This document shows positions 125-9,882 of a stretch of DNA of 64,000 bases, piece by piece. How positions within the stretch are numbered: position 1 is the stretch's first letter; each line of letters opens with the position of its first letter. The position numbers were made by a program, and so were the translations under genes. The DNA is from Achromobacter xylosoxidans (GTDB lineage Bacteria > Pseudomonadota > Gammaproteobacteria > Burkholderiales > Burkholderiaceae_B): contig NZ_CP061008.1 in assembly GCF_014490035.1 (NCBI RefSeq), positions 2,356,001 to 2,420,000 on the forward strand. The letters run 5' to 3'. Under the pieces are notes generated by a model that worked only from the letters and a program-made list of their open reading frames with translations, was not told the origin of the DNA and did not search any database.

Positions 125-1759
125 TCAGGCCTGCGGCGGCTTTTGGCCCATGATGCGCCCCGCGGCGGCCACGCCCCACCACGAGGCTTCCTCGAACACG
201 GAATAGCCCGATAGGTCCGAGTGCGCGAACAGTATCGGACCGTCCACGTCGCGCAGCGCGGCCAGTCCCGGATTGGACAGGTAGCCGCACAGCGGCGAGG
301 CCATGGCATGGCCGCGCACCGTGATTTCCAGCTGGCGCGCATGGCGCCAGAATTCCTTGCCGTAGGCCGCGACCAGGTCGGATGCGGCCTCGGCCCGCAG
401 CTCTTCCGGGGTGGCCCGGGTCAGCCATTCGCGCGCGGCCTGGGGCGTCTGTCCGCCGAGCGCGTGATACGCCGTGAAGACGCAGCGCGGCGTGCGGGCC
501 ACGCGCAGCAACTGGTGCGTGGAGACGACGTAGCCCAGCGCCTTGCCTTGATAGACCACGTTGTCCCAGGACAGCGGTTCGCCCGGGGCTTCGGCCGGGT
601 AGCCTTCCATGACGAAGTTCGACACCATCCAGGGCGCGTGCGGCGGCGCGTGCACCGCCGGATCGTAGCCATAGGCGCTGATGTCGGGCAGGATGCGCTG
701 GGCCACGAACAACGGCATCGCGCACACGGCTCGGCGCGCCTGCACCGTGTAGGCGTCGGAGGACGAGGCCAGGCAGGTGACCAGCGCGCCGGCGGGCGTC
801 TCCTGTACCCGGACCGCCGTGCCGGCGGCCAGCCAATCGGCATGGCCGAGCTTCTTGGTGATCGCGTCGCGCATGCGCTGCATCAGCGTCGACAGGCCGC
901 CAGGCCAGGTCAGCACGGCGCCTTCGCCCGCATTTTCGGCATGGCCGTCGCGGCTGGCGAAGTAGTGCAGGCCGGCCCAGGCCGAGACCGCGTCGTATTG
1001 CGCGCCGTAGTCGTCGCGGCAGCAGTAGTTCAGGTACCAGTGCAGCGCGGGCGAGGTGTAGCCTTCGCGGTCCAGCCATTGCTTGAACGTGATCGCGTCC
1101 AGCGCGCGCCAGGCCGGATCCCGCGACGACAGCGTGAGCGGGATGCTGAAGACCTTGCGGCCGTCGCTGCCGGTCTGCGTGTGCAGGCGATTGATCAGCG
1201 CGAGGAATTTGCGGTGCTGCGCCAGGTCCGCTTCCGGCAGCCCGTTCATGGGCAGCAGGTTTTCTTCCCAATGGCCGCCGCGCAGCAGACGCTCCTGGGG
1301 CGAGTGCACCAGCGCGGTCTCGTCGTAGTAGGGACGGAGGGTACTTGCGCCGCGCTCGATGATGCCGAAGTCGGCCAGCATTTGGCGTATGTGCGTGGAG
1401 GCCATCGAGGGCAGGGGCAGGTAGTGCGCGCCCAAGGGGTAGTCCAGGCCCTCGCGCTGGCCGGCGGCTGCATTGCCGTCGAGTTCGGGACCCTGTAGCA
1501 CCAGGAAATCCGTGTGCCCTTCGCGCGCCAGCTTCCAGGCGCAGGACAGGCCCGCCACGCCCGAACCCAGTATCACGACGTCGCGCTTGTGGTTGGCCGA
1601 GGGCTGCGGCCAGGCCGCCCCGTCGCGCAAGGCGTGGCCAGCCTGCATGCCCGGGTAATGGATTTCCGGCGTGGTCTCGACGATGCGCGAACGGTAGTAC
1701 CCGGCGGTGCCGGCGACCGCGGCCGTGGCCGCGCCCAACAGGAAGCTGCGCCGCCGCAT
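125..1759 (-). CDS. Tat-exported FAD-dependent amine-oxidase-like oxidoreductase
   Basis: The protein has 544 residues. It starts with a twin-arginine signal (RRRSFLLG, then an Ala-rich hydrophobic run), which suggests export as a folded flavoprotein. A Rossmann FAD motif, VVILGSGVAGLS, sits at residues 61-72. The C-terminal region (GPILFAHSDLSGY) resembles the second FAD contact of flavin amine oxidases and phytoene desaturases. The start codon overlaps the stop of the upstream spermidine synthase by one base (TGATG), so the two are translationally coupled. The company of spermidine synthase and, across the divergent promoter, AdoMet decarboxylase suggests a polyamine or polyamine-derived substrate in the periplasm; that is inference. 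It could instead be a desaturase of another substrate. Confidence 0.8.
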   Translation of the reverse strand: MRRRSFLLGAATAAVAGTAGYYRSRIVETTPEIHYPGMQAGHALRDGAAWPQPSANHKRDVVILGSGVAGLSCAWKLAREGHTDFLVLQGPELDGNAAAGQREGLDYPLGAHYLPLPSMASTHIRQMLADFGIIERGASTLRPYYDETALVHSPQERLLRGGHWEENLLPMNGLPEADLAQHRKFLALINRLHTQTGSDGRKVFSIPLTLSSRDPAWRALDAITFKQWLDREGYTSPALHWYLNYCCRDDYGAQYDAVSAWAGLHYFASRDGHAENAGEGAVLTWPGGLSTLMQRMRDAITKKLGHADWLAAGTAVRVQETPAGALVTCLASSSDAYTVQARRAVCAMPLFVAQRILPDISAYGYDPAVHAPPHAPWMVSNFVMEGYPAEAPGEPLSWDNVVYQGKALGYVVSTHQLLRVARTPRCVFTAYHALGGQTPQAAREWLTRATPEELRAEAASDLVAAYGKEFWRHARQLEITVRGHAMASPLCGYLSNPGLAALRDVDGPILFAHSDLSGYSVFEEASWWGVAAAGRIMGQKPPQA

Positions 1760-3270
1760 CAGCGGATGACCTTGCGCCAGTCCTCGTCGAAGTAGCGCAC
1801 CAGCGATTGCTCGTTCAGACGGTTCGGAGGCATCGCCAGCGCGGGCATGTCGGCAGGGAAGTGGAACAGTTCGCGCGTCGTGACCGGGTCCAGGTAGCGC
1901 GTGGGCACGGTGATCGCGGCGGGCGGCTCGTAGTCGCGGCGCTTGCTGGCCAGAATGAAGCCCCAGTCGCCGAAGGACGGCACGTAGGTGTGGTACGGCC
2001 AGGTGTTCAGGCCGGCTTCCTTCAAGGTGGCGTCCACGCTCCAGAACGAGCGCGGCGCGAAGTAGGGCGAGGTGGACTGCACCACCATGTAGCCGTTCTC
2101 GGCCAGGTGGCGCGCCATCAGGTGATAGACCGGCACCGAGTACAGCCGGCCCAGGCCGAAGTTGGACGGGTCCGGAAAATCCACCACGATGTAGTCATAG
2201 ACCTCGGCATGGGTTTCCAGCCAGCGGCCGGCGTCGTCGTTGATGACCGTGACCCGCGGATCCTTCAACGACCCCTGGTTCAGCTTGACCAGCGGCTCGG
2301 AGCGGGAAAACAGGCCGGTCATGGCCGGATCCAGATCCACCAGCGTCACGTGTTCGATATTCTTGTATTTGAGGATTTCGCGCACCGCCAGGCCATCGCC
2401 GCCGCCCAGCACCAGCACGTTGCGCGCCCAGGGCAGGGCTTGCAGGCCGGGATGCACCAGCGCTTCGTGGTAGCGGTGCTCGTCGCGCGACGAAAACTGC
2501 AGGTTGCCGTTGATGTACAGGCGCAGGTCGTCGTGCCAGCGCGTGACCACCAGGCGCTGATACTGCGTGGTTTCCGCGTGCACCACGTCGTCGCCGTACA
2601 GGCCTTTCTCGGCCCAGGCCGTCATGCTGCCGGAATAGATGAAGCCCAGGCCCAGGAACCCGATCACGACGCTGGCGCGGATGGCCTTTTCGCTGGGGCG
2701 GGGGATCTCGGCGCGGAACAGCCAGGTGGTCCACAGCGCCACGCTGGCGTTCAGGATGCCGAACAGGAAGCTGGTGCGCAGCAATCCGAGCTTGGGCGCG
2801 AGCAACAGGGGAAACACCAGCGACACAGCCAGCGCGCCCAGGTAATCGAAGGTCAGCACGCGGCTGACGATTTCGCGGAATTCGGTCTTGCGCTGGTTGA
2901 ACACCCGCATCACCAGCGGGATTTCCATGCCGACCATCAGGCCAATGAGGAACACGCCCACATACAGCGCCGCGCGAAAGGGGGCGGGCATCCATGAGAA
3001 GACCAGGAACAGCACCGCGGCGGAGACGCCGCCCAACAGCGCGACCAGCAGCTCCACATCGATGAAGCGATTCAAAACGTCTTCGTCTCTTACATATTTT
3101 GACAACCACGAGCCTATGCCCATGGCGAACAGATAACAGCCGATGACGGAAGAGAACTGCAGTATCGAATCCCCCAGCAAATAGCTGGCCAGCGCGCTGC
3201 TGATGAGCTCATAGCCCAAACCGCAGGAGGCGACGATCAATACCGAAAGGATGAGAATGCGGTCGCGCAT
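1759..3270 (-). CDS. Membrane-anchored spermidine synthase-like aminopropyltransferase
   Basis: The protein has 503 residues. The N-terminal ~200 residues are a run of hydrophobic helices (about seven spans by eye). The C-terminal half is a SpeE-type methyltransferase-fold domain. It carries the substrate-gate motif DEHRYHEALVHP, the AdoMet/dcAdoMet loop VLVLGGGDGLA, the acidic VDLDP and the active-site DFPDPSNFGLGRLYS. Classical SpeE is soluble and about 280 residues, so this form places aminopropyl transfer at the membrane. I chose the ATG at 3270; an upstream in-frame TTG at 3333 would overlap the divergent promoter. AdoMet decarboxylase, which makes the donor, is encoded across the divergent promoter. 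Which amine it uses cannot be read from the sequence. Confidence 0.85.
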   Translation of the reverse strand: MRDRILILSVLIVASCGLGYELISSALASYLLGDSILQFSSVIGCYLFAMGIGSWLSKYVRDEDVLNRFIDVELLVALLGGVSAAVLFLVFSWMPAPFRAALYVGVFLIGLMVGMEIPLVMRVFNQRKTEFREIVSRVLTFDYLGALAVSLVFPLLLAPKLGLLRTSFLFGILNASVALWTTWLFRAEIPRPSEKAIRASVVIGFLGLGFIYSGSMTAWAEKGLYGDDVVHAETTQYQRLVVTRWHDDLRLYINGNLQFSSRDEHRYHEALVHPGLQALPWARNVLVLGGGDGLAVREILKYKNIEHVTLVDLDPAMTGLFSRSEPLVKLNQGSLKDPRVTVINDDAGRWLETHAEVYDYIVVDFPDPSNFGLGRLYSVPVYHLMARHLAENGYMVVQSTSPYFAPRSFWSVDATLKEAGLNTWPYHTYVPSFGDWGFILASKRRDYEPPAAITVPTRYLDPVTTRELFHFPADMPALAMPPNRLNEQSLVRYFDEDWRKVIR

Positions 3271-3296
3271 GAGGTGTCCGACACGAAAAATGCGTT

Positions 3297-3328
3297 CGCA
3301 GTATATCGAACGCGCCGTATATACTGCG
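3297..3328. promoter_or_regulatory. Inverted repeat between divergent polyamine-cluster operons
   Basis: CGCAGTATAT at 3297-3306 is repeated inverted and perfectly as ATATACTGCG at 3319-3328, with a 12-nt spacer. Each arm contains a TATACT hexamer suited to a -10 box, on the plus strand at 3320-3325 and on the minus strand at 3305-3300. The plus-strand TSS would fall near 3332, only ~16 nt before the DUF350 start. A dimeric regulator binding here could control both operons together. No regulator gene is adjacent. Confidence 0.55.
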
Positions 3329-3347
3329 CGCAATTAGGAGGGTGGCA

Positions 3348-3746
3348 ATGGGAGAAGCAATGCATCCGGTGGTGACCTATCTTATCTATATGGCGTCCGC
3401 GCTTGCCATGCTGGGTGTCTTCACCTTGGTCTACACGGCCGTCACGCGCTATAAGGAATTCGAGCTGATCCGCGAAGGCAATATCGCCGCCGCGCTGTCG
3501 TATGGCGGCGCGCTGGTGGGCTTCAGCTTCACCTTGTGCTCCAGCATCGCGATCCATGCCAGCTATGCCATGTTCCTGCTGTGGGGCCTGGTGGCCATGC
3601 TGGTGCAGCTGGTCGTGTACGTGGGCGTGTCCCAGACGGTGCGCGGCATGAACGAGGCCATCGAAGAAAACAACATCGCCATGGGCGGGCTGATCGGCTC
3701 GATTTCCATCGCCGCCGGCATCGTCAACGCCGCCAGCCTGACCTGA
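3348..3746 (+). CDS. DUF350 membrane protein (YjfL-like)
   Basis: The protein has 132 residues and about four hydrophobic segments, typical of DUF350 (E. coli YjfL family). It opens the rightward operon. I chose the ATG at 3348 because AGGAGG at 3336-3341 sits 6 nt upstream; a GTG at 3342 and an ATG at 3360 are alternatives. Known context: DUF350 proteins occur in E. coli yjf-type operons with a PspA-like protein and a glutathionylspermidine synthase-like enzyme. Here it sits with an SPFH protein and polyamine enzymes, so a membrane-integrity role tied to polyamines is likely. Its molecular function is unknown. Confidence 0.85.
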   Translation: MGEAMHPVVTYLIYMASALAMLGVFTLVYTAVTRYKEFELIREGNIAAALSYGGALVGFSFTLCSSIAIHASYAMFLLWGLVAMLVQLVVYVGVSQTVRGMNEAIEENNIAMGGLIGSISIAAGIVNAASLT

Positions 3747-3787
3747 CGCGGGCTCGCGCCGCACCTGATCTGACAGGAGAAAGACTC

Positions 3788-4819
3788 ATGAGTCTCGGTT
3801 CATTCATCCGCAAGCAGTTCATCGACATCCTGCAATGGAACGAGGACCGCGACGGCGTGCTCGCCTGGCGTCATCCCATGCAGGATTTCGAAATCCAGTA
3901 TGGCGCCAGCCTGACCGTGCGCGAATCGCAGATGGCGGTGTTCGTCAACGAAGGCAAGGTCGCCGACGTGTTCGGTCCCGGCATGTACAAGCTGACCACG
4001 CAGACGCTGCCGATCCTGACCTACCTGAAGAACTGGGACAAGCTGTTCGAGTCGCCCTTCAAGTCGGACGTGATCTTCTTCAGTACGCGCCTGCAGCTGG
4101 GCCGGCGCTGGGGCACGGCGCAGCCGGTGACCTTGCGCGACAGCGAATTCGGCATGGTGCGGCTGCGCGCCTTCGGCGTTTATTCCTATCAGATTTCCGA
4201 TCCCGCCAAGTTCTACCGCGAGATCAGCGGCACGCGCGACGAGTACACCGTCGACGACCTGGAAGCGCAGCTGCGCAACATGGTGGTCGCGGCGATGACG
4301 ACGGCGCTGGGCGGCTCCAAGGTGCCGTTCCTGGACATGGCCGGCAACCAGGGGCTGATGTCGCAAAGCATCGCTGAACAGCTGGCGCCGGTGTTCGACC
4401 GCTACGGTGTCAAGCTCGACAACTTCACGGTCGAGAACGTCTCGCTGCCGGAAGAACTGCAGAAGGCGCTGGACACGCGGATTTCCATGGGCATGGCCGG
4501 CGACCTGGGCAAGTTCACCCAGTACCAGACCGCCACGGCCATACCGATGGCCGCGCAGAACGAAGGCGGCATCGCCGGCATCGGCGCGGGCCTGGCGGCC
4601 GGCGCGGCGCTGGGCCAGACCATGGCGGCAGGATTGGCCGGCGCCCAGGGGCAGCCGCAGCAGGCCGCGCAGCAACCTGCCCAGCAGGCGCCCGCCGCCG
4701 CGGGCGCGGATCCGGCGCAGCGGTTGCAGCAGCTCAAGGATCTGCTGGACAAAGGCCTGATCACGGCCGCGGACTACGATTCGGCCAAGGCCGAAGTGCT
4801 GAAGAAACTCACCAGCTAA
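3788..4819 (+). CDS. SPFH/Band-7 (virion core-like) protein with C-terminal SHOCT domain
   Basis: The protein has 343 residues. Residues ~20-240 form an SPFH/Band-7 domain of the virion-core-protein-like subfamily. A Gly/Ala/Gln-rich linker follows (~260-305). The last ~32 residues are a SHOCT motif (LKDLLDKGLITAADYDSAKAEVL), a short oligomerisation or tethering module. There is no N-terminal membrane helix, so peripheral association through partners is expected. The start at 3788 is set by AGGAGA at 3774-3779. DUF4178 follows after 6 nt. SPFH proteins scaffold membrane microdomains; here the partners are probably the DUF350 and DUF4178 membrane proteins. Confidence 0.88.
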   Translation: MSLGSFIRKQFIDILQWNEDRDGVLAWRHPMQDFEIQYGASLTVRESQMAVFVNEGKVADVFGPGMYKLTTQTLPILTYLKNWDKLFESPFKSDVIFFSTRLQLGRRWGTAQPVTLRDSEFGMVRLRAFGVYSYQISDPAKFYREISGTRDEYTVDDLEAQLRNMVVAAMTTALGGSKVPFLDMAGNQGLMSQSIAEQLAPVFDRYGVKLDNFTVENVSLPEELQKALDTRISMGMAGDLGKFTQYQTATAIPMAAQNEGGIAGIGAGLAAGAALGQTMAAGLAGAQGQPQQAAQQPAQQAPAAAGADPAQRLQQLKDLLDKGLITAADYDSAKAEVLKKLTS

Positions 4820-4825
4820 GGCTCC

Positions 4826-6295
4826 ATGCAGCAGGTTCTGTGTCCGCAGTGCGGCGCCCCAGTCAAGTTCACGTCCGCGGCATCGGTCATGGCGGTCTGC
4901 GGCGCCTGCCGCAGCACCTTGCTGAAGGACGCCGAGTCGGTCAAGCGCATCGGCGAGGCCGCCGAGGTCCTGGAGGACTACTCGCCCTTGTGCCTGGGGG
5001 CGGCCGGCACTCATGAAGGCAAGCGCTTCGACCTGATCGGCCGCATCCAGCTGCGCTACGAAGACGGCTTCTGGAACGAGTGGTATCTGTGGTTCGAGGA
5101 CGGCTCGGACGGCTGGCTGTCGGACGCCTCGGGCCAGTACGCCGTGACCCGGCGGCGCAAGGTCAAGTCCACGCAGGGCATGCCGGCGTTCAACGATATC
5201 GCGCCCGGCGACGAACTGAAGCTGGACGGCCAGCGCTTCACCGCCGCCGACGTGCGCGCCTGCCAGGCGGGCGGCACGCAAGGCGAGCTGCCCTTCGTGC
5301 CGGGCGACGGCTGGTTGGCCAAGGTGGCCGATTACCGCAGCCTGGACGCGTTCCTGACGCTGGACTTTTCCGACGGACCCGAGCCCGAGCTGTACATCGG
5401 CAAGGCATTCGACCTGTCCGCCATGCAGGCGGCATCGCTGCGGACCAACGAGCAGGTCGAGGAAACCGCCGGCCGTTTCCGCGGTCAGATCAAGGCGCTG
5501 GACTGCCCCAACTGCGGCGGGCCCATAAGCTTCGTGGCCGCCATGGCCACGCAAGTGGTCTGCCCCTCGTGTGCGGCCACCGTTGATTGCTCGGGACCTA
5601 CGGCCGAGGTCATCGAAAAGGCCCGCAAGGTCAAAGCCATCAAGACCACGTTGCCGCTGGGCGCGGTGGCCAAGATCGACGGCGCGTCCTACACGCTCAT
5701 CGGCCTGATGAAGTGCGCCGATCCGGACCCCGAGGAGCCGTCCGACTGGATCGAGTACCTGCTGTTCAATCCCGCGAAGGGATTCATCTGGCTGGTGGAA
5801 ACCGAAGAGGGCTGGGAGCGGGTGCAGGTATGCGATACCTGGCCCAGCCACAACAACGCCAGCAGCGTGCGCTGGCGCTCCAAGCTCTATCAGAAGCTGT
5901 ACGACTACACCTCGCGCGTGGAACTGGCGTTGGGCGCGTTCAACTGGCGCGTCAAGGTCGGCGACAGCACCAAGATCACGGATTACAAGGCCGGCAACCT
6001 GAAGCTGACCCGCGAGCTGAGCGAATCCGAGCTGGGCTGGTCGGCCTCGGGGCCGGTGGCGCCGGCGCAGTTGGCGGAATGGTTTGGCGATCCTGAACTT
6101 GCCAAGCAGAAGGCCATGCCGCTCAGCGGCAAGCCCGGGGGCTATCGCAAGTTCGCCTGGACGGCCATGATCGTGCTGGCCTTCCTGAATATCGACACCA
6201 TTTTCAGCGGGGGCATCATCCCGCTGCTGATCGGCGCGGCGTTTCTCTGGATCCCGGCGGCGCTGGCGGACAAACTGGCCGGCAAGGACGAATGA
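4826..6295 (+). CDS. Tandem zinc-ribbon/DUF4178 membrane protein
   Basis: The protein has 489 residues and is built as an internal duplication. A zinc ribbon (C6, C9, C25, C28) precedes a DUF4178 module (~50-200). A second ribbon with the same spacing (C227, C230, C246, C249) precedes a second DUF4178 module (~265-430). Two hydrophobic helices near the C-terminus (~445-480) would anchor it in the membrane with the ribbons in the cytoplasm. It lies 6 nt after the SPFH gene and just before the 54-residue membrane peptide gene. DUF4178 proteins are known to sit next to polyamine and DUF350 genes. Their function is not established. Confidence 0.85.
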   Translation: MQQVLCPQCGAPVKFTSAASVMAVCGACRSTLLKDAESVKRIGEAAEVLEDYSPLCLGAAGTHEGKRFDLIGRIQLRYEDGFWNEWYLWFEDGSDGWLSDASGQYAVTRRRKVKSTQGMPAFNDIAPGDELKLDGQRFTAADVRACQAGGTQGELPFVPGDGWLAKVADYRSLDAFLTLDFSDGPEPELYIGKAFDLSAMQAASLRTNEQVEETAGRFRGQIKALDCPNCGGPISFVAAMATQVVCPSCAATVDCSGPTAEVIEKARKVKAIKTTLPLGAVAKIDGASYTLIGLMKCADPDPEEPSDWIEYLLFNPAKGFIWLVETEEGWERVQVCDTWPSHNNASSVRWRSKLYQKLYDYTSRVELALGAFNWRVKVGDSTKITDYKAGNLKLTRELSESELGWSASGPVAPAQLAEWFGDPELAKQKAMPLSGKPGGYRKFAWTAMIVLAFLNIDTIFSGGIIPLLIGAAFLWIPAALADKLAGKDE

Positions 6296-6299
6296 CAGA

Positions 6300-6464
6300 A
6301 TGGGCAAGCTTCTATACACCGTCTACGCCATCGTGGTGGTGATCTTCGCCACCGGGTTCAACACCCCGGGCGCGCGCATGTCCAGCGGCGGCGGCTCCAG
6401 CAGCAGCTGGGGCAGCAGTTCCTCGGGCGGGTCGGGCTGGTCCTCGGGCGGATCCCACAAGTGA
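6300..6464 (+). CDS. Small membrane protein with Gly/Ser/Trp-rich tail
   Basis: This gene encodes 54 residues. Residues 4-19 form one hydrophobic helix (LLYTVYAIVVVIFATG). The remainder is almost entirely Gly, Ser and Trp with repeated SSGG and WSSGG units and ends in SHK. It starts 5 nt after the DUF4178 stop, and its TGA overlaps the GTG start of speD (GTGA), so it sits in frame with operon logic. No RBS stands out, and coupling to DUF4178 is likely. The low-complexity tail suggests a flexible tether, perhaps facing the periplasm. I know no named family for it. Confidence 0.7.
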   Translation: MGKLLYTVYAIVVVIFATGFNTPGARMSSGGGSSSSWGSSSSGGSGWSSGGSHK

Positions 6465-6811
6465 TCCCGCATGCCACACCCGGCCGCCACGTGCTGGCCG
6501 ATTTCCGCGGCGTGCCGGCGGATCGCCTGACCGACGCGCAAGCGCTGGAACGCGACCTGATCGCCGCGGCGCAGGCGGCGGGCGCGCGCGTGCTGAGCGC
6601 GCACTTCCATCATTTCGGCGCAGGCGCGGGCGTGACCGGCGTGGTCCTGCTGAGCGAATCCCACATCAGCATTCATACCTGGCCCGAACACGCGTTCGCG
6701 GCGCTGGACATCTTCATGTGCGGCGCGGCCCGGCCCGAGCTGGCGCTGGAGCACCTGCGGGCGCGGCTGGCGCCCGAGGCGGTGCACGCGACCACGGTGG
6801 CGCGCGGCTGA
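6461..6811 (+). CDS. speD: S-adenosylmethionine decarboxylase proenzyme
   Basis: This 116-residue protein matches short prokaryotic (class 1b) AdoMet decarboxylases. It is made as a proenzyme that self-cleaves at Glu66-Ser67 in SESHISIHTWPE, turning Ser67 into the pyruvoyl group. The conserved Cys in LDIFMCG is also present. It supplies decarboxylated AdoMet, the aminopropyl donor for the membrane-bound synthase encoded on the other arm of the cluster. The GTG start at 6461 overlaps the preceding stop. The next in-frame start, GTG at 6491, would remove the conserved N-terminal strand. No ornithine or arginine decarboxylase is nearby, so putrescine must come from elsewhere. Confidence 0.93.
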   Translation: MIPHATPGRHVLADFRGVPADRLTDAQALERDLIAAAQAAGARVLSAHFHHFGAGAGVTGVVLLSESHISIHTWPEHAFAALDIFMCGAARPELALEHLRARLAPEAVHATTVARG

Positions 6812-6896: not shown

Positions 6897-6930
6897 TTAC
6901 CGACTTAGCGAATTCCCCTGGGAGAAGAAC

Positions 6931-7689
6931 ATGTTCCGCAACCGTCCGATCGTGGCGCTGTCCTTGGCGCTGGCCGCCGCATGGAGCGCCAACGCCACCG
7001 CCGGCGACCTGGTGGTTTCGGCCGCCGCCAGCCTGACCAACGCCTTCAAGGAAGTCGCGCAAGGCTACGAAAAAGAGCATGCCGGCACCAAGGTCATCCT
7101 GAACTTCGGCGCGTCCGACGTGCTGCTGCAGCAGATCGTCAAGGGCGCCCCGGCCGACGTGTTCGCCTCGGCGGACCAGAAGGCCATGGACAAGGCGGTC
7201 GAGGAGAAGGCCGTCAAGCCGGCCTCGCGCGTGGACTTCGCCGCCAACCAGGTGGTGCTGATCGTGCCGGCCGACAGCAAGGCCAACATCACCGCGCTCA
7301 AGGACCTGACCCGCGACGACGTCAAGCGCATCGCCTACGGCAACCCGGCATCGGTGCCGGTGGGCCGCTACACCCAGGGCGCGCTGGAAGCGGCCGGCCT
7401 CTGGAAGGAAGTGCAGGCCAAGAGCGTGCTGGCCCAGAACGTGCGCCAGAGCCTGGACTACGTGGCGCGCGGCGAGGTCGACGCGGGCTTCGTGTTCGCG
7501 ACCGACGCGGCCATCATGGCGGACAAGGTCAAGGTCGCGGTGCGCGTGCCTTCGCAGACGCCGGTGACCTATCCCATCGCCGTCACCACGCGTGAAACCG
7601 CCGCCAAGGAAGCCGAAAGCTTTGTTGCCTATGTGCTGTCTCCCGCAGGCCAGGCGATACTGTCGCGCTACGGCTTCCAGAAGCCCTGA
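6931..7689 (+). CDS. modA: Molybdate ABC transporter, periplasmic binding protein
   Basis: The protein has 252 residues with a cleavable signal peptide ending near SANATA. The mature N-terminus (LVVSAAASLTNAFKEVA) is characteristic of ModA, with the Ser residues that bind the oxyanion. Other family segments are FGASDVLLQQIVKGAPADVFASA and the domain-2 motif VDAGFVFATDA. It captures molybdate or tungstate in the periplasm for ModBC. The ATG at 6931 has GGGAGA just upstream, and a ModE box precedes it. The ATG start of modB follows after 23 nt. Confidence 0.95.
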   Translation: MFRNRPIVALSLALAAAWSANATAGDLVVSAAASLTNAFKEVAQGYEKEHAGTKVILNFGASDVLLQQIVKGAPADVFASADQKAMDKAVEEKAVKPASRVDFAANQVVLIVPADSKANITALKDLTRDDVKRIAYGNPASVPVGRYTQGALEAAGLWKEVQAKSVLAQNVRQSLDYVARGEVDAGFVFATDAAIMADKVKVAVRVPSQTPVTYPIAVTTRETAAKEAESFVAYVLSPAGQAILSRYGFQKP

Positions 7690-7712
7690 TACCTGTTGAA
7701 TCGTAGGCATTG

Positions 7713-8399
7713 ATGAGTGATCCGGTTTGGGTGCCGCTGCTGCTTTCCCTGAAAGTGGCGGGCTGGGCAACGCTGTTGGCGACCGTGGCGGGCACGGCCG
7801 CGGCTTATGGCCTGTCGCGCTGGCGCTGGCCGGGGCGCGACCTGCTGGACGCGCTGCTGACCTTGCCGCTGGTATTGCCGCCCACGGTGCTGGGCTACTA
7901 CCTGCTGGTGCTGCTGGGGCGCCGCGGCGTCATCGGCGAGACGCTGGCGGGCTGGGGCATCGAACTGGTCTTCACCTGGCAGGGCGCGGTGATCGCCGCT
8001 TCCGTGGTGGCCTTTCCGCTGGTGTTCAAGTCCGCCCGCGCCGCCTTCGAGAACGTCGACAGCCAGCTGGAAAGCGCGGCGCGCGTGCTGGGCGTGTGCG
8101 AGGCGGGGATCTTCTTCCGCGTCACCTTGCCGCTGGCCGCGCGCGGCATCGCCGCCGGCGTGCTGCTGGCCTTCGCGCGGGCGCTGGGCGAATTCGGCGC
8201 CACGCTGATGATTGCCGGCAACCTGCCGGGACGCACGCAGACCCTGTCGGTCGCCATCTACGAGGCCGTACAGGCGGGCGACGACGCCACGGCCAATATG
8301 CTGGTGCTGGTCACCTCGGTGACTTGCGTGGTGGTCCTGCTGCTGGCCGGCAAGCTGGTGCCCGTCAGCAGCGGCCGGCGCAATGGGAGCGCGCTATGA
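7713..8399 (+). CDS. modB: Molybdate ABC transporter permease
   Basis: This 228-residue protein has five or six hydrophobic segments and the permease EAA loop (ESAARVLGVCEAGIFFRVTLP), which docks on the ATPase. LPLVLPPTVLGYYLL is typical of ModB. I took the ATG at 7713 over the adjacent TTG at 7710. The stop overlaps the modC start (ATGA), indicating coupled translation. Confidence 0.95.
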   Translation: MSDPVWVPLLLSLKVAGWATLLATVAGTAAAYGLSRWRWPGRDLLDALLTLPLVLPPTVLGYYLLVLLGRRGVIGETLAGWGIELVFTWQGAVIAASVVAFPLVFKSARAAFENVDSQLESAARVLGVCEAGIFFRVTLPLAARGIAAGVLLAFARALGEFGATLMIAGNLPGRTQTLSVAIYEAVQAGDDATANMLVLVTSVTCVVVLLLAGKLVPVSSGRRNGSAL

Positions 8400-9082
8400 G
8401 CGTCAGCATCCAGGTGCGCAAGCAGATGGTGTCCGGCGAGCGGCGCTTCGCGCTGGACGTCGCATTCGATTCGTCCGCCAAGCGCATCGCGCTGTTCGGT
8501 CCCTCGGGCGCGGGCAAAAGCCTGACCCTGCGCGCGGTGGCGGGCCTGCTGCGCCCCGACTCGGGCCGCATCGAGATCAACGGCCGCGTGCTGTTCGACA
8601 CCGACGCTGGCATCAACCTGCCCGCGCAATCGCGCCGCGTCGCCTATCTGTTCCAGGACTATGCCCTGTTTCCCCACCTGACCGTGGCGCAGAACATCGC
8701 TTTCGGGCTGCGCCGCGGCTGGCGCAACCCGCCCCGGCGCGAGGTCGGACCCGAGGCGCAGCGCTGGGTGGACGCGTTCGAGCTGGGTTCCATCGTGGGC
8801 AGCTATCCCAGCGAGATCTCCGGCGGCCAGAAGCAGCGGGTGGCGCTGGCGCGAGCCCTCATGCTGCGGCCCGACATCCTGCTGCTGGACGAGCCTTTTT
8901 CAGCGCTGGATTCGCAGCTGCGCGGCAAGATGCGGCTGGAACTCAACGCCTTGCAACGCCAGCTGGACGTGCCGATGCTGCTGATCACGCACGACCCGGC
9001 GGATGTGGACGCGCTGGCCGACGAAGTGTTCGAAGTGCGCGAGGGCAGGGTGCGGCGCCACGACGAGGACGTGGGCGTCTGA
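8396..9082 (+). CDS. modC: Molybdate ABC transporter ATPase, short form without Mop domain
   Basis: The protein has 228 residues and a single ABC ATPase domain: Walker A GPSGAGKS (~38-45), Q-loop in LFQDYALFPHL, signature SGGQKQRVALARAL, Walker B ILLLDEP and H-loop LITHDP. Typical ModC is ~350 residues because a C-terminal molybdate-binding Mop/TOBE domain follows. That domain is absent here, and the stop falls 5 nt before the convergent modE stop. Molybdate sensing is therefore left to ModE, which has two Mop domains. The ATG overlaps the modB stop. Confidence 0.92.
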   Translation: MSVSIQVRKQMVSGERRFALDVAFDSSAKRIALFGPSGAGKSLTLRAVAGLLRPDSGRIEINGRVLFDTDAGINLPAQSRRVAYLFQDYALFPHLTVAQNIAFGLRRGWRNPPRREVGPEAQRWVDAFELGSIVGSYPSEISGGQKQRVALARALMLRPDILLLDEPFSALDSQLRGKMRLELNALQRQLDVPMLLITHDPADVDALADEVFEVREGRVRRHDEDVGV

Positions 9083-9087
9083 GCGGC

Positions 9088-9882
9088 TCAGTCCAGCACG
9101 CCCAGGATCACGCTGGAAGCCTTGAAGATCGCGACCGCGTCGGCGCCTACGTCCAGGCCCAGGTCCTGCGCGCTTTCATTGGTGACGATGGCTGCCAGCG
9201 TCACGCCGCCGTCCAGTCCGATCAGGATCTCGCTGTTGACGGCGCCCGGGCGCAGCGCCGTGATCTTGCCCGGCAGTTGATTGCGCGCCGACAGGCGCAG
9301 GCCGGGGCCGGGCGCGCCCACGATGACGGACGACGCCTTGACCAGCGCGATCGCTTCCTTGCCCGCGGCCAGTCCCAATTCCTGTGTGCTTTCGCGGGTG
9401 ATGGTGGCCGTGATGGTCAGGCCGCCCGCGATGCGCAGCACGATTTCGTCGTTGACGGCGCCGGCGCGGATCTGGATGACGGTGCCTAGCAGTTTGTTGC
9501 GCGCGCTGGTCTTGAGCATGAATCGCCTCATGAGGTCGATGTCGCCGGCGGCGTTCACGCCGGCGCGGGTCAGGTTTTCCATGAACTTGCGGTGTTCGGC
9601 TTCCAGGGCGCGGAAGGTGCCGATCAGGCCGCGCGCGCGGTCCGTCAGGCGCGTGCCGCCGCCGCCCTTGCCGCCGGCGGCCCTGATCACCAAAGGCTCG
9701 CCCGCCAGGTTGTTCATGGCGTCGATGGCGTCCCATGCGCCCTTGTAGCTCATGCCCACGGCGCGCGCGGCGGCCGTGATCGAGCCGGTGGCGTCGATCT
9801 GCGCCAGCAGGTCTATGCGGTTTTTTCCGCCCCAGGTCTGGGCGCCGGAGCGAAACCAAATCGAGCCGTCGAGTTCCAACAT
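9088..9882 (-). CDS. modE: ModE molybdate-responsive regulator with two Mop domains
   Basis: The protein has 264 residues. The N-terminal winged helix (~20-110) contains GSITAAARAVGMSYKGAWDAID, the ModE recognition region. Two tandem Mop/TOBE domains follow at ~125-190 and ~197-262, each with the S-A-R-N-x-L-x-G motif (TSARNKLLG, LSARNQLPG). It binds molybdate and represses modABC through the box at 6873-6896. It converges on modC with a 5-nt gap. No Shine-Dalgarno sequence is evident before the ATG. Confidence 0.95.
   Translation of the reverse strand: MLELDGSIWFRSGAQTWGGKNRIDLLAQIDATGSITAAARAVGMSYKGAWDAIDAMNNLAGEPLVIRAAGGKGGGGTRLTDRARGLIGTFRALEAEHRKFMENLTRAGVNAAGDIDLMRRFMLKTSARNKLLGTVIQIRAGAVNDEIVLRIAGGLTITATITRESTQELGLAAGKEAIALVKASSVIVGAPGPGLRLSARNQLPGKITALRPGAVNSEILIGLDGGVTLAAIVTNESAQDLGLDVGADAVAIFKASSVILGVLD

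Follow-up and report, generated by a model that had tools for sequence, protein, structure and literature searches.

The locus described here raises the question of what a membrane-fused aminopropyltransferase modifies. It is a cluster of seven genes at positions 125–6811 of a 64,000-nucleotide stretch of Achromobacter xylosoxidans DNA (G000:C1:2356001-2420000, from a 6.76-Mb genome, and hereafter called the window), and a check of open reading frames (ORFs) found all seven where a preliminary description of this DNA had placed them. That description took the genes for one system that makes or modifies a polyamine at the membrane. We suggest instead that these genes form a protein-aminopropylation system of the membrane, in which the aminopropyltransferase (mAPT) would act on the C-terminal lysine of a partner protein and an amine oxidase (OX) on the product; with sequence as its basis, we give this reading a probability of about 0.47, slightly below even. 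The cluster itself is not new. This operon variant is described by Ravi et al. 2024 (PMC11237479), whose section 19 leaves the modified target open, and the general idea of the preliminary description is likewise in print; what appears to be novel is a candidate for the acceptor.

Conservation was counted in the best 80 of the 325 confirmed relatives returned by a protein scan with mAPT, among which the nearest named ones belong to Achromobacter, where identity over mAPT reaches 98%. Near mAPT these 80 loci carry genes for OX (78), DUF350 (79), an SPFH protein (79), a DUF4178 protein (71) and the S-adenosylmethionine (AdoMet) decarboxylase SpeD (68), and contig ends account for every missing gene except two, the SpeD genes of L071 (Pseudoxanthomonas) and L072 (Lysobacter). 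The arrangement of strands, with OX-mAPT on one strand and DUF350-SPFH-DUF4178-SpeD on the other, is identical in 80/80 loci and spans Achromobacter, Bordetella, Burkholderia, Cupriavidus, Zoogloea, Andreprevotia, Chromobacterium and others. Since all 80 loci share this layout, the genes can be regarded as one system, as had been claimed, and the possibility that the families meet only by chance is rejected by the same check of co-occurrence across genera. Packing is tight, with the mAPT stop and the OX start sharing 1 nt and the GTG start of SpeD overlapping the stop of the gene before it.

That preceding gene, listed without a role in the preliminary description, encodes the proposed acceptor, a 54-residue peptide (6300–6464, plus strand) with a single transmembrane (TM) segment and a tail rich in Ser and Gly whose last two residues are His-Lys (codons at 6456–6461). 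The ORF has no Pfam or NCBIfam match, and the short length and low complexity of the peptide limit its recovery by tblastn to 16/80 loci. Its conservation is therefore positional, and was read from the interval between DUF4178 and speD by a tail rule that does not require lysine. A tail was obtained in 70 of the 71 loci with DUF4178, the sole locus without one (L064) being on a truncated contig, and all 70 complete intervals end in HK. In 62 of these 70 tails there is no further lysine within the last 28 residues, and among other genes of the same loci (the six other cluster genes and the neighbouring modA) a C-terminal lysine is found in 8/454. The terminal lysine is encoded by AAG in 39 cases and by AAA in 31, and the use of both codons indicates that the amino acid itself is selected. 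An origin of the lysine in the overlap with the SpeD start (GTGA) was considered and rejected, as the overlap constrains only the last base of the codon and both AAA and AAG occur; it is also contradicted by fused or distant tails that end in lysine. The ORF thus appears to represent a new conserved family, and its C-terminal lysine is the prime candidate target of mAPT, with the peptide as the likely acceptor. In many of the small HK peptides of Burkholderia and Paraburkholderia (L073-L108) the TM segment is followed by LFSC or MFSC, which resembles a lipobox and suggests a lipoprotein form.

We also looked for lysine-ending partners across Pseudomonadota genomes, scoring mAPT as present where NF002956 exceeded its cut-off. 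This gave mAPT in 22/200 genomes and then, with these 22 included, in 44/398. A lysine-ending membrane, lipoprotein or DUF4178-fused partner was found in 44/44, the genome of the window being one of them. In the first batch the partner near mAPT ends in lysine in 17/20 loci, and for the three misses (L148, L156 and L159) a lysine-ending partner lies on another contig. The partners take several forms: HK or THK peptides, DUF4178-fused tails, peptides of 79–100 residues ending in GSGK or GGK, an 80-residue one ending in RIK, lipoproteins ending in RRGK or FGGK, and a 576-residue protein ending in SGK. In L145, L146, L149, L216, L221, L223, L238 and L240 the DUF4178 protein itself carries the HK tail at its C-terminus, in place of a separate peptide. 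The second batch comprised 24 loci, taken from G062 and 22 new genomes; it was fetched after the lysine idea had formed, and was read with a tail filter that does not require lysine. By this filter 23/24 loci have a lysine-ending partner; in the 24th the cluster is split by a restriction-modification island, and the DUF4178 protein beyond it ends in HK, making 24/24. The filter also passed 11 other ORFs that were set aside by eye, ten with other ends and one with lysine (L234), some of them antisense to cluster genes and some (for example L217, L223, L233 and L239) on the operon strand outside the gene run. A restriction-modification-like island, recognised by eye, separates mAPT from the DUF4178/SPFH genes and so splits the cluster in one genome, G245 (L218/L240).

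Profiles built from the partners gave a similar picture for the lipoprotein form, which was matched in 16/398 genomes, all of them mAPT-positive; leaving out the ten genomes that had contributed rows to the profile, 6/6 are mAPT-positive (Fisher 3e-7). In G092 and G097 this partner lies on a contig other than that of mAPT, beside DUF350. The small-peptide profile matched nine genomes, of which seven had given rows and the others are G203 (mAPT-positive) and G292. The partner tails of G092, G097, G203 and G292 end in lysine. Full-length mAPT is plasmid-borne in 12 cases, and in the five that were checked, one of them from Gemmatimonadota, a lysine-ending partner was found each time.

A related system in E. 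coli offers a comparison in which the chemistry differs. YjfC and YgiC are peptide-spermidine ligases according to Pederick et al. 2023, as cited in PMC12568646 and PMC10948618. The kinship with the E. coli yjf operon that had been proposed for the cluster is borne out, with PMC11237479 in agreement: yjfIJKLMC likewise sets DUF350 (YjfL) and a partner with a Ser/Gly/Arg-rich tail (YjfM) beside an enzyme of polyamine chemistry. There, however, the enzyme is the ligase YjfC in place of an aminopropyltransferase, and the tail of YjfM, whose gene adjoins that of YjfC, ends in Gly-Gly (...SSSARGHWGG). In 22/200 genomes we found 25 matches to DUF1190, the family of such partners; none of the 24 C-termini read ends in lysine (L182, at a contig edge, was left out of the count), and three weak matches in G225 end in R, E and D. 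All 17 C-termini read beside YjfC-like genes end in Gly (12) or Ser (5). The genome of the window has no DUF1190 match, and the window's tail, ending in HK, is unlike those of DUF1190/YjfM partners. No genome among the 200 has both mAPT and DUF1190, an absence that is not significant (0.14). A ligase resembling glutathionylspermidine synthetase would use the C-terminal carboxylate, whereas the acceptor that an aminopropyltransferase requires is a group such as an amine. The correlation suggests that the last residue of the partner follows the type of enzyme, being lysine with a transferase and glycine or serine with a ligase.

The transferase mAPT (1759–3270, minus strand, its start taken as the ATG at 3270) combines seven TM helices with a spermidine-synthase-fold domain and matches the polyamine aminopropyltransferase family NF002956 with 700 bits; its domain matches the aminopropyltransferases 1uir, 6bq2 and 3o4f in both sequence and fold, so that the fold and the catalytic motifs of spermidine synthase (SpeE) are present. 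Across 19 mAPT sequences the motifs GGGDG, DExxYHE and DxPDP do not vary; 12 divergent relatives have GAGDG in three cases and YHD in one (L161). In solved synthases the Asp residues of these motifs bind amine substrates. The side chain of lysine is a four-carbon amine, like the one that putrescine presents to spermidine synthase. Of the four Spermine_synth matches in the genome, mAPT scores highest with 125 bits, and the others reach 44, 41 and 26 bits. At G000:C1:3478779-3480743 an 881-residue ORF matches the membrane part and, weakly, spermidine synthase (106 bits against NF002956 and 26 bits against PF01564), and looks like a distant fused paralogue.

The presumed donor would come from SpeD (6461–6811, plus strand, GTG start), a class 1b AdoMet decarboxylase by its matches to TIGR03330 (125 bits) and AdoMet_dc. 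Aligned to T. maritima 1tlu over 7–115, it retains SESHxxIHTWPE and the cysteine, and thus the processing Ser and the catalytic His and Cys of this class (S63, H68 and C83 of T. maritima), the residue roles being taken from PMC10407285. Also kept is the proline of HTWPE, which we assume to be the one marked in Fig. 8 of that paper and whose loss would be expected in the neofunctionalised decarboxylases SpeDC and SpeDA. An ornithine or arginine decarboxylase activity, considered as another assignment for SpeD, is unsupported by the 1tlu alignment. In the genome of the window SpeD is the single match to PF02675, and PF01536 has zero matches. Among the first mAPT genomes 18/22 have PF02675, compared with 28/178 others (Fisher 6e-10), and 15/22 of the further ones do. 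The remaining four and seven include one and seven, respectively, that are covered by the class-2, eukaryote-type decarboxylase PF01536 (G201, G254, G328, G355, G357, G367, G379 and G398), so that one or the other family is found in 41/44. An enzyme that makes decarboxylated AdoMet and a membrane aminopropyltransferase do, by family, stand together here, as the preliminary description had it.

The proposed mechanism would run as follows. By homology, SpeD would make decarboxylated AdoMet in the cytoplasm, and mAPT would use it to aminopropylate the side-chain amine of the tail's C-terminal lysine, an acceptor suggested by co-occurrence and by the invariance of this residue. The tail would be carried by the 54-residue peptide here and by a lipoprotein or a DUF4178-fused tail elsewhere, while SPFH-SHOCT, DUF350 and DUF4178 would assemble or sense at the membrane. 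Taking the loop boundaries from the hydropathy of the window protein, we counted 115 Lys and Arg in loops 2, 4 and 6 compared with 15 in loops 1, 3 and 5 (13 divergent mAPTs, that of the window included). By the positive-inside rule this places the N-terminus inside and the domain after TM7 outside, so that the catalytic domain is probably outside the inner membrane; lipobox-bearing partners and the twin-arginine (RR) motif of the oxidase likewise point outward. With the catalytic domain outside, decarboxylated AdoMet must cross the membrane, and the TM part of mAPT may pass it across. Alternatively, TM7 may not cross, in which case the catalytic domain would be cytoplasmic and the tail modified before export.

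The oxidase would then remove or oxidise the new amine. OX (125–1759, minus strand; Pfam Amino_oxidase/NAD_binding_8) has no sequence match in the PDB at 1e-3. Its AlphaFold2 (AF2) model, with a confidence score (pLDDT) of 86.6, shows the flavin amine oxidase fold with the FAD-binding Rossmann motif, and its best PDB fold matches are putrescine oxidase 2yg3 (E 4.5e-20), monoamine oxidases and spermidine dehydrogenase 7d9h. The N-terminus reads MRRRSFLLG, and in several orthologues the RR motif is accompanied by a lipobox-like site, both read by eye. Export of OX by the twin-arginine (Tat) route can be inferred from this motif, and the claim of an exported amine oxidase in the preliminary description is upheld to that extent, as probable.

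Generalised beyond the window, the scheme becomes a widespread extracytoplasmic modification, in which an mAPT fed by an AdoMet decarboxylase would aminopropylate the lysine at the C-terminus of its dedicated, exported partner, whose end follows the enzyme type, with the periplasmic oxidase of Achromobacter-type clusters as eraser or modifier. We hold this broader form more tentatively than the narrower one. Several observations weigh against the aminopropylation reading. Three mAPT genomes, G077, G097 and G208 (71% complete), keep the lysine tail and have no match to PF02675 or PF01536, and G292 (67% complete) has a lysine-ending partner and no mAPT over the cut-off. Only 18/41 genomes have the decarboxylase on the contig of mAPT and no more than 10 kb away from it; in the other 23 it is farther away or on another contig, and in several of these (for example G122, G398, G357 and G379) it adjoins a soluble SpeE-like gene, and may therefore serve spermidine synthesis too rather than mAPT alone. 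Outside its row-giving genomes the small-peptide profile finds one mAPT-positive and one mAPT-negative genome, which is not significant (0.18). No supporting evidence was found for the passage of decarboxylated AdoMet across the membrane, and the AF2 model of mAPT, in which seven long helices are seen, has a low pLDDT of just 46–67 over residues 1–160. Related genomes are not independent samples, and the partners were recognised partly by their tails. Moreover, the C-terminal lysine of an exported protein can have other uses, as in the Braun lipoprotein.

These points leave room for other explanations. One is a polyamine model, in essence that of the preliminary description: mAPT would add the aminopropyl group to a small diamine at the membrane, such as putrescine or 2-hydroxyputrescine, and the free polyamine so made would be oxidised outside by OX. 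This model agrees with the spermidine synthase catalytic motifs retained in mAPT, with the resemblance of OX to putrescine oxidase and spermidine dehydrogenase and with an apparently intact SpeD. It leaves the invariant lysine tails unexplained, and a 2019 study by Li and colleagues reportedly found that such fusions, with which DUF350 is clustered, do not make spermidine. With one PF02675 decarboxylase in the genome, that of the cluster, and three lesser Spermine_synth matches besides mAPT, a polyamine product was not borne out, and we consider it unlikely. The lysine would equally go unexplained if mAPT aminopropylated an amino lipid such as phosphatidylethanolamine and so altered surface charge, the tail protein being an accessory. 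The membrane location of mAPT and its SPFH and DUF350 partners would suit such a role, and PMC11237479 ties these operons to membrane dynamics; none of the seven genes matches a lipid-binding family in Pfam, and this too seems improbable.

Two further explanations account for the lysine itself. It could anchor the tail to peptidoglycan through L,D-transpeptidases, with mAPT acting elsewhere or regulating the anchoring. Braun's lipoprotein is the precedent, an exported protein that puts the amine of its C-terminal lysine to chemical use, and several partners are indeed lipoprotein-like; there, however, L,D-transpeptidases make the link to peptidoglycan and no aminopropyltransferase takes part. 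No L,D-transpeptidase is found by Pfam among the seven genes, and the lipoprotein partner family was seen only in mAPT genomes (10 of its 16 gave profile rows), so that we rate anchoring as doubtful, a shade below the free polyamine. An invariant C-terminal dipeptide would also fit a binding motif, and the lysine might serve a protein partner as a signal for docking or proteolysis and never be modified. Every partner found ends in Lys and none in Arg, a common residue in these tails, which speaks against such a signal, an argument weakened by the use of the tails in recognising partners; we think such a signal no likelier than the modification of a lipid. Aminopropylation of the lysine remains the reading with the best support.

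Its closest chemical parallels are deoxyhypusine and hypusine in eIF5A and the lysine-polyamines of diatom silaffins, in all of which a lysine side chain receives an aminoalkyl group; silaffin peptides, too, are rich in Ser, Gly and Lys. The enzymes, donors and proteins of those systems differ from those of the mAPT system, for which lysine aminoalkylation is only proposed. Our literature search, which had preprints and most subscription papers outside its range, returned papers on polyamine synthesis and microcin C for aminopropylation and nothing on the tail rule; among the papers it covered, DUF4178 is named only by Ravi et al. Should the proposal hold, bacteria would have in protein aminopropylation a post-translational modification of a new kind, their counterpart of hypusine or silaffin chemistry, and AdoMet decarboxylase would gain a role outside spermidine synthesis. 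An acceptor candidate that accompanies the enzyme in 44/44 sampled genomes makes the published open question directly testable.

The operon described in section 19 of PMC11237479 comprises a spermidine-synthase-like protein fused to 7TM, DUF350 and DUF4178, which occur together in the window as well; one of its variants adds band-7/SHOCT, an AdoMet decarboxylase and a polyamine oxidase. In that variant band-7 with SHOCT replaces CesT/Tir-PspA, and the window's seven genes likewise include no PspA by Pfam; AdoMet decarboxylase and oxidase are also shared, the window's OX being a predicted amine oxidase. The main text of that paper never uses the word lysine, and its section 19 does not mention the 54-residue peptide. 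The variant's 2TM element between band-7 and SHOCT was not seen in the window: its SPFH/Band 7 protein with C-terminal SHOCT (3788–4819, plus strand; Band_7_1 258.6 bits, SHOCT 28.5 bits) has only a Gly/Ala-rich stretch there and no segment with a mean hydropathy of 1.6 or more over 19 residues.

Upstream of this gene, DUF350 (3348–3746, plus strand), a YjfL-family protein, was assigned by Pfam (110 bits) and has four hydrophobic segments by hydropathy. Downstream lies the tandem zinc-ribbon/DUF4178 gene (4826–6295, plus strand), with 93.8 bits in Pfam over two stretches; the protein has two CxxC...CxxC zinc-ribbon-like motifs by its Cys positions and two C-terminal hydrophobic segments. The divergent spacer between mAPT and DUF350 (3271–3347) holds facing TATACT-like elements. 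That it forms one divergent promoter, as had been stated, is supported in part: the octamer AGTATATC is present, on either strand, in 68/79 orthologous spacers, and a consensus scan of the 77 bp gave no sigma-70 site. The octamers are possibly facing −10 elements or an operator. Within the spacer they stand in the inverted arrangement GCAGTATATcgaacgcgccgTATATACTGC. Downstream of the cluster, at 6928–9882 of the window, apparent molybdate-type uptake genes follow: a ModA-like protein matching SBP_bac_11 in Pfam (6928–7689), a permease-like ORF (7710–8399), an ATPase-like ORF and a ModE-like regulator ORF (9088–9882, minus strand).

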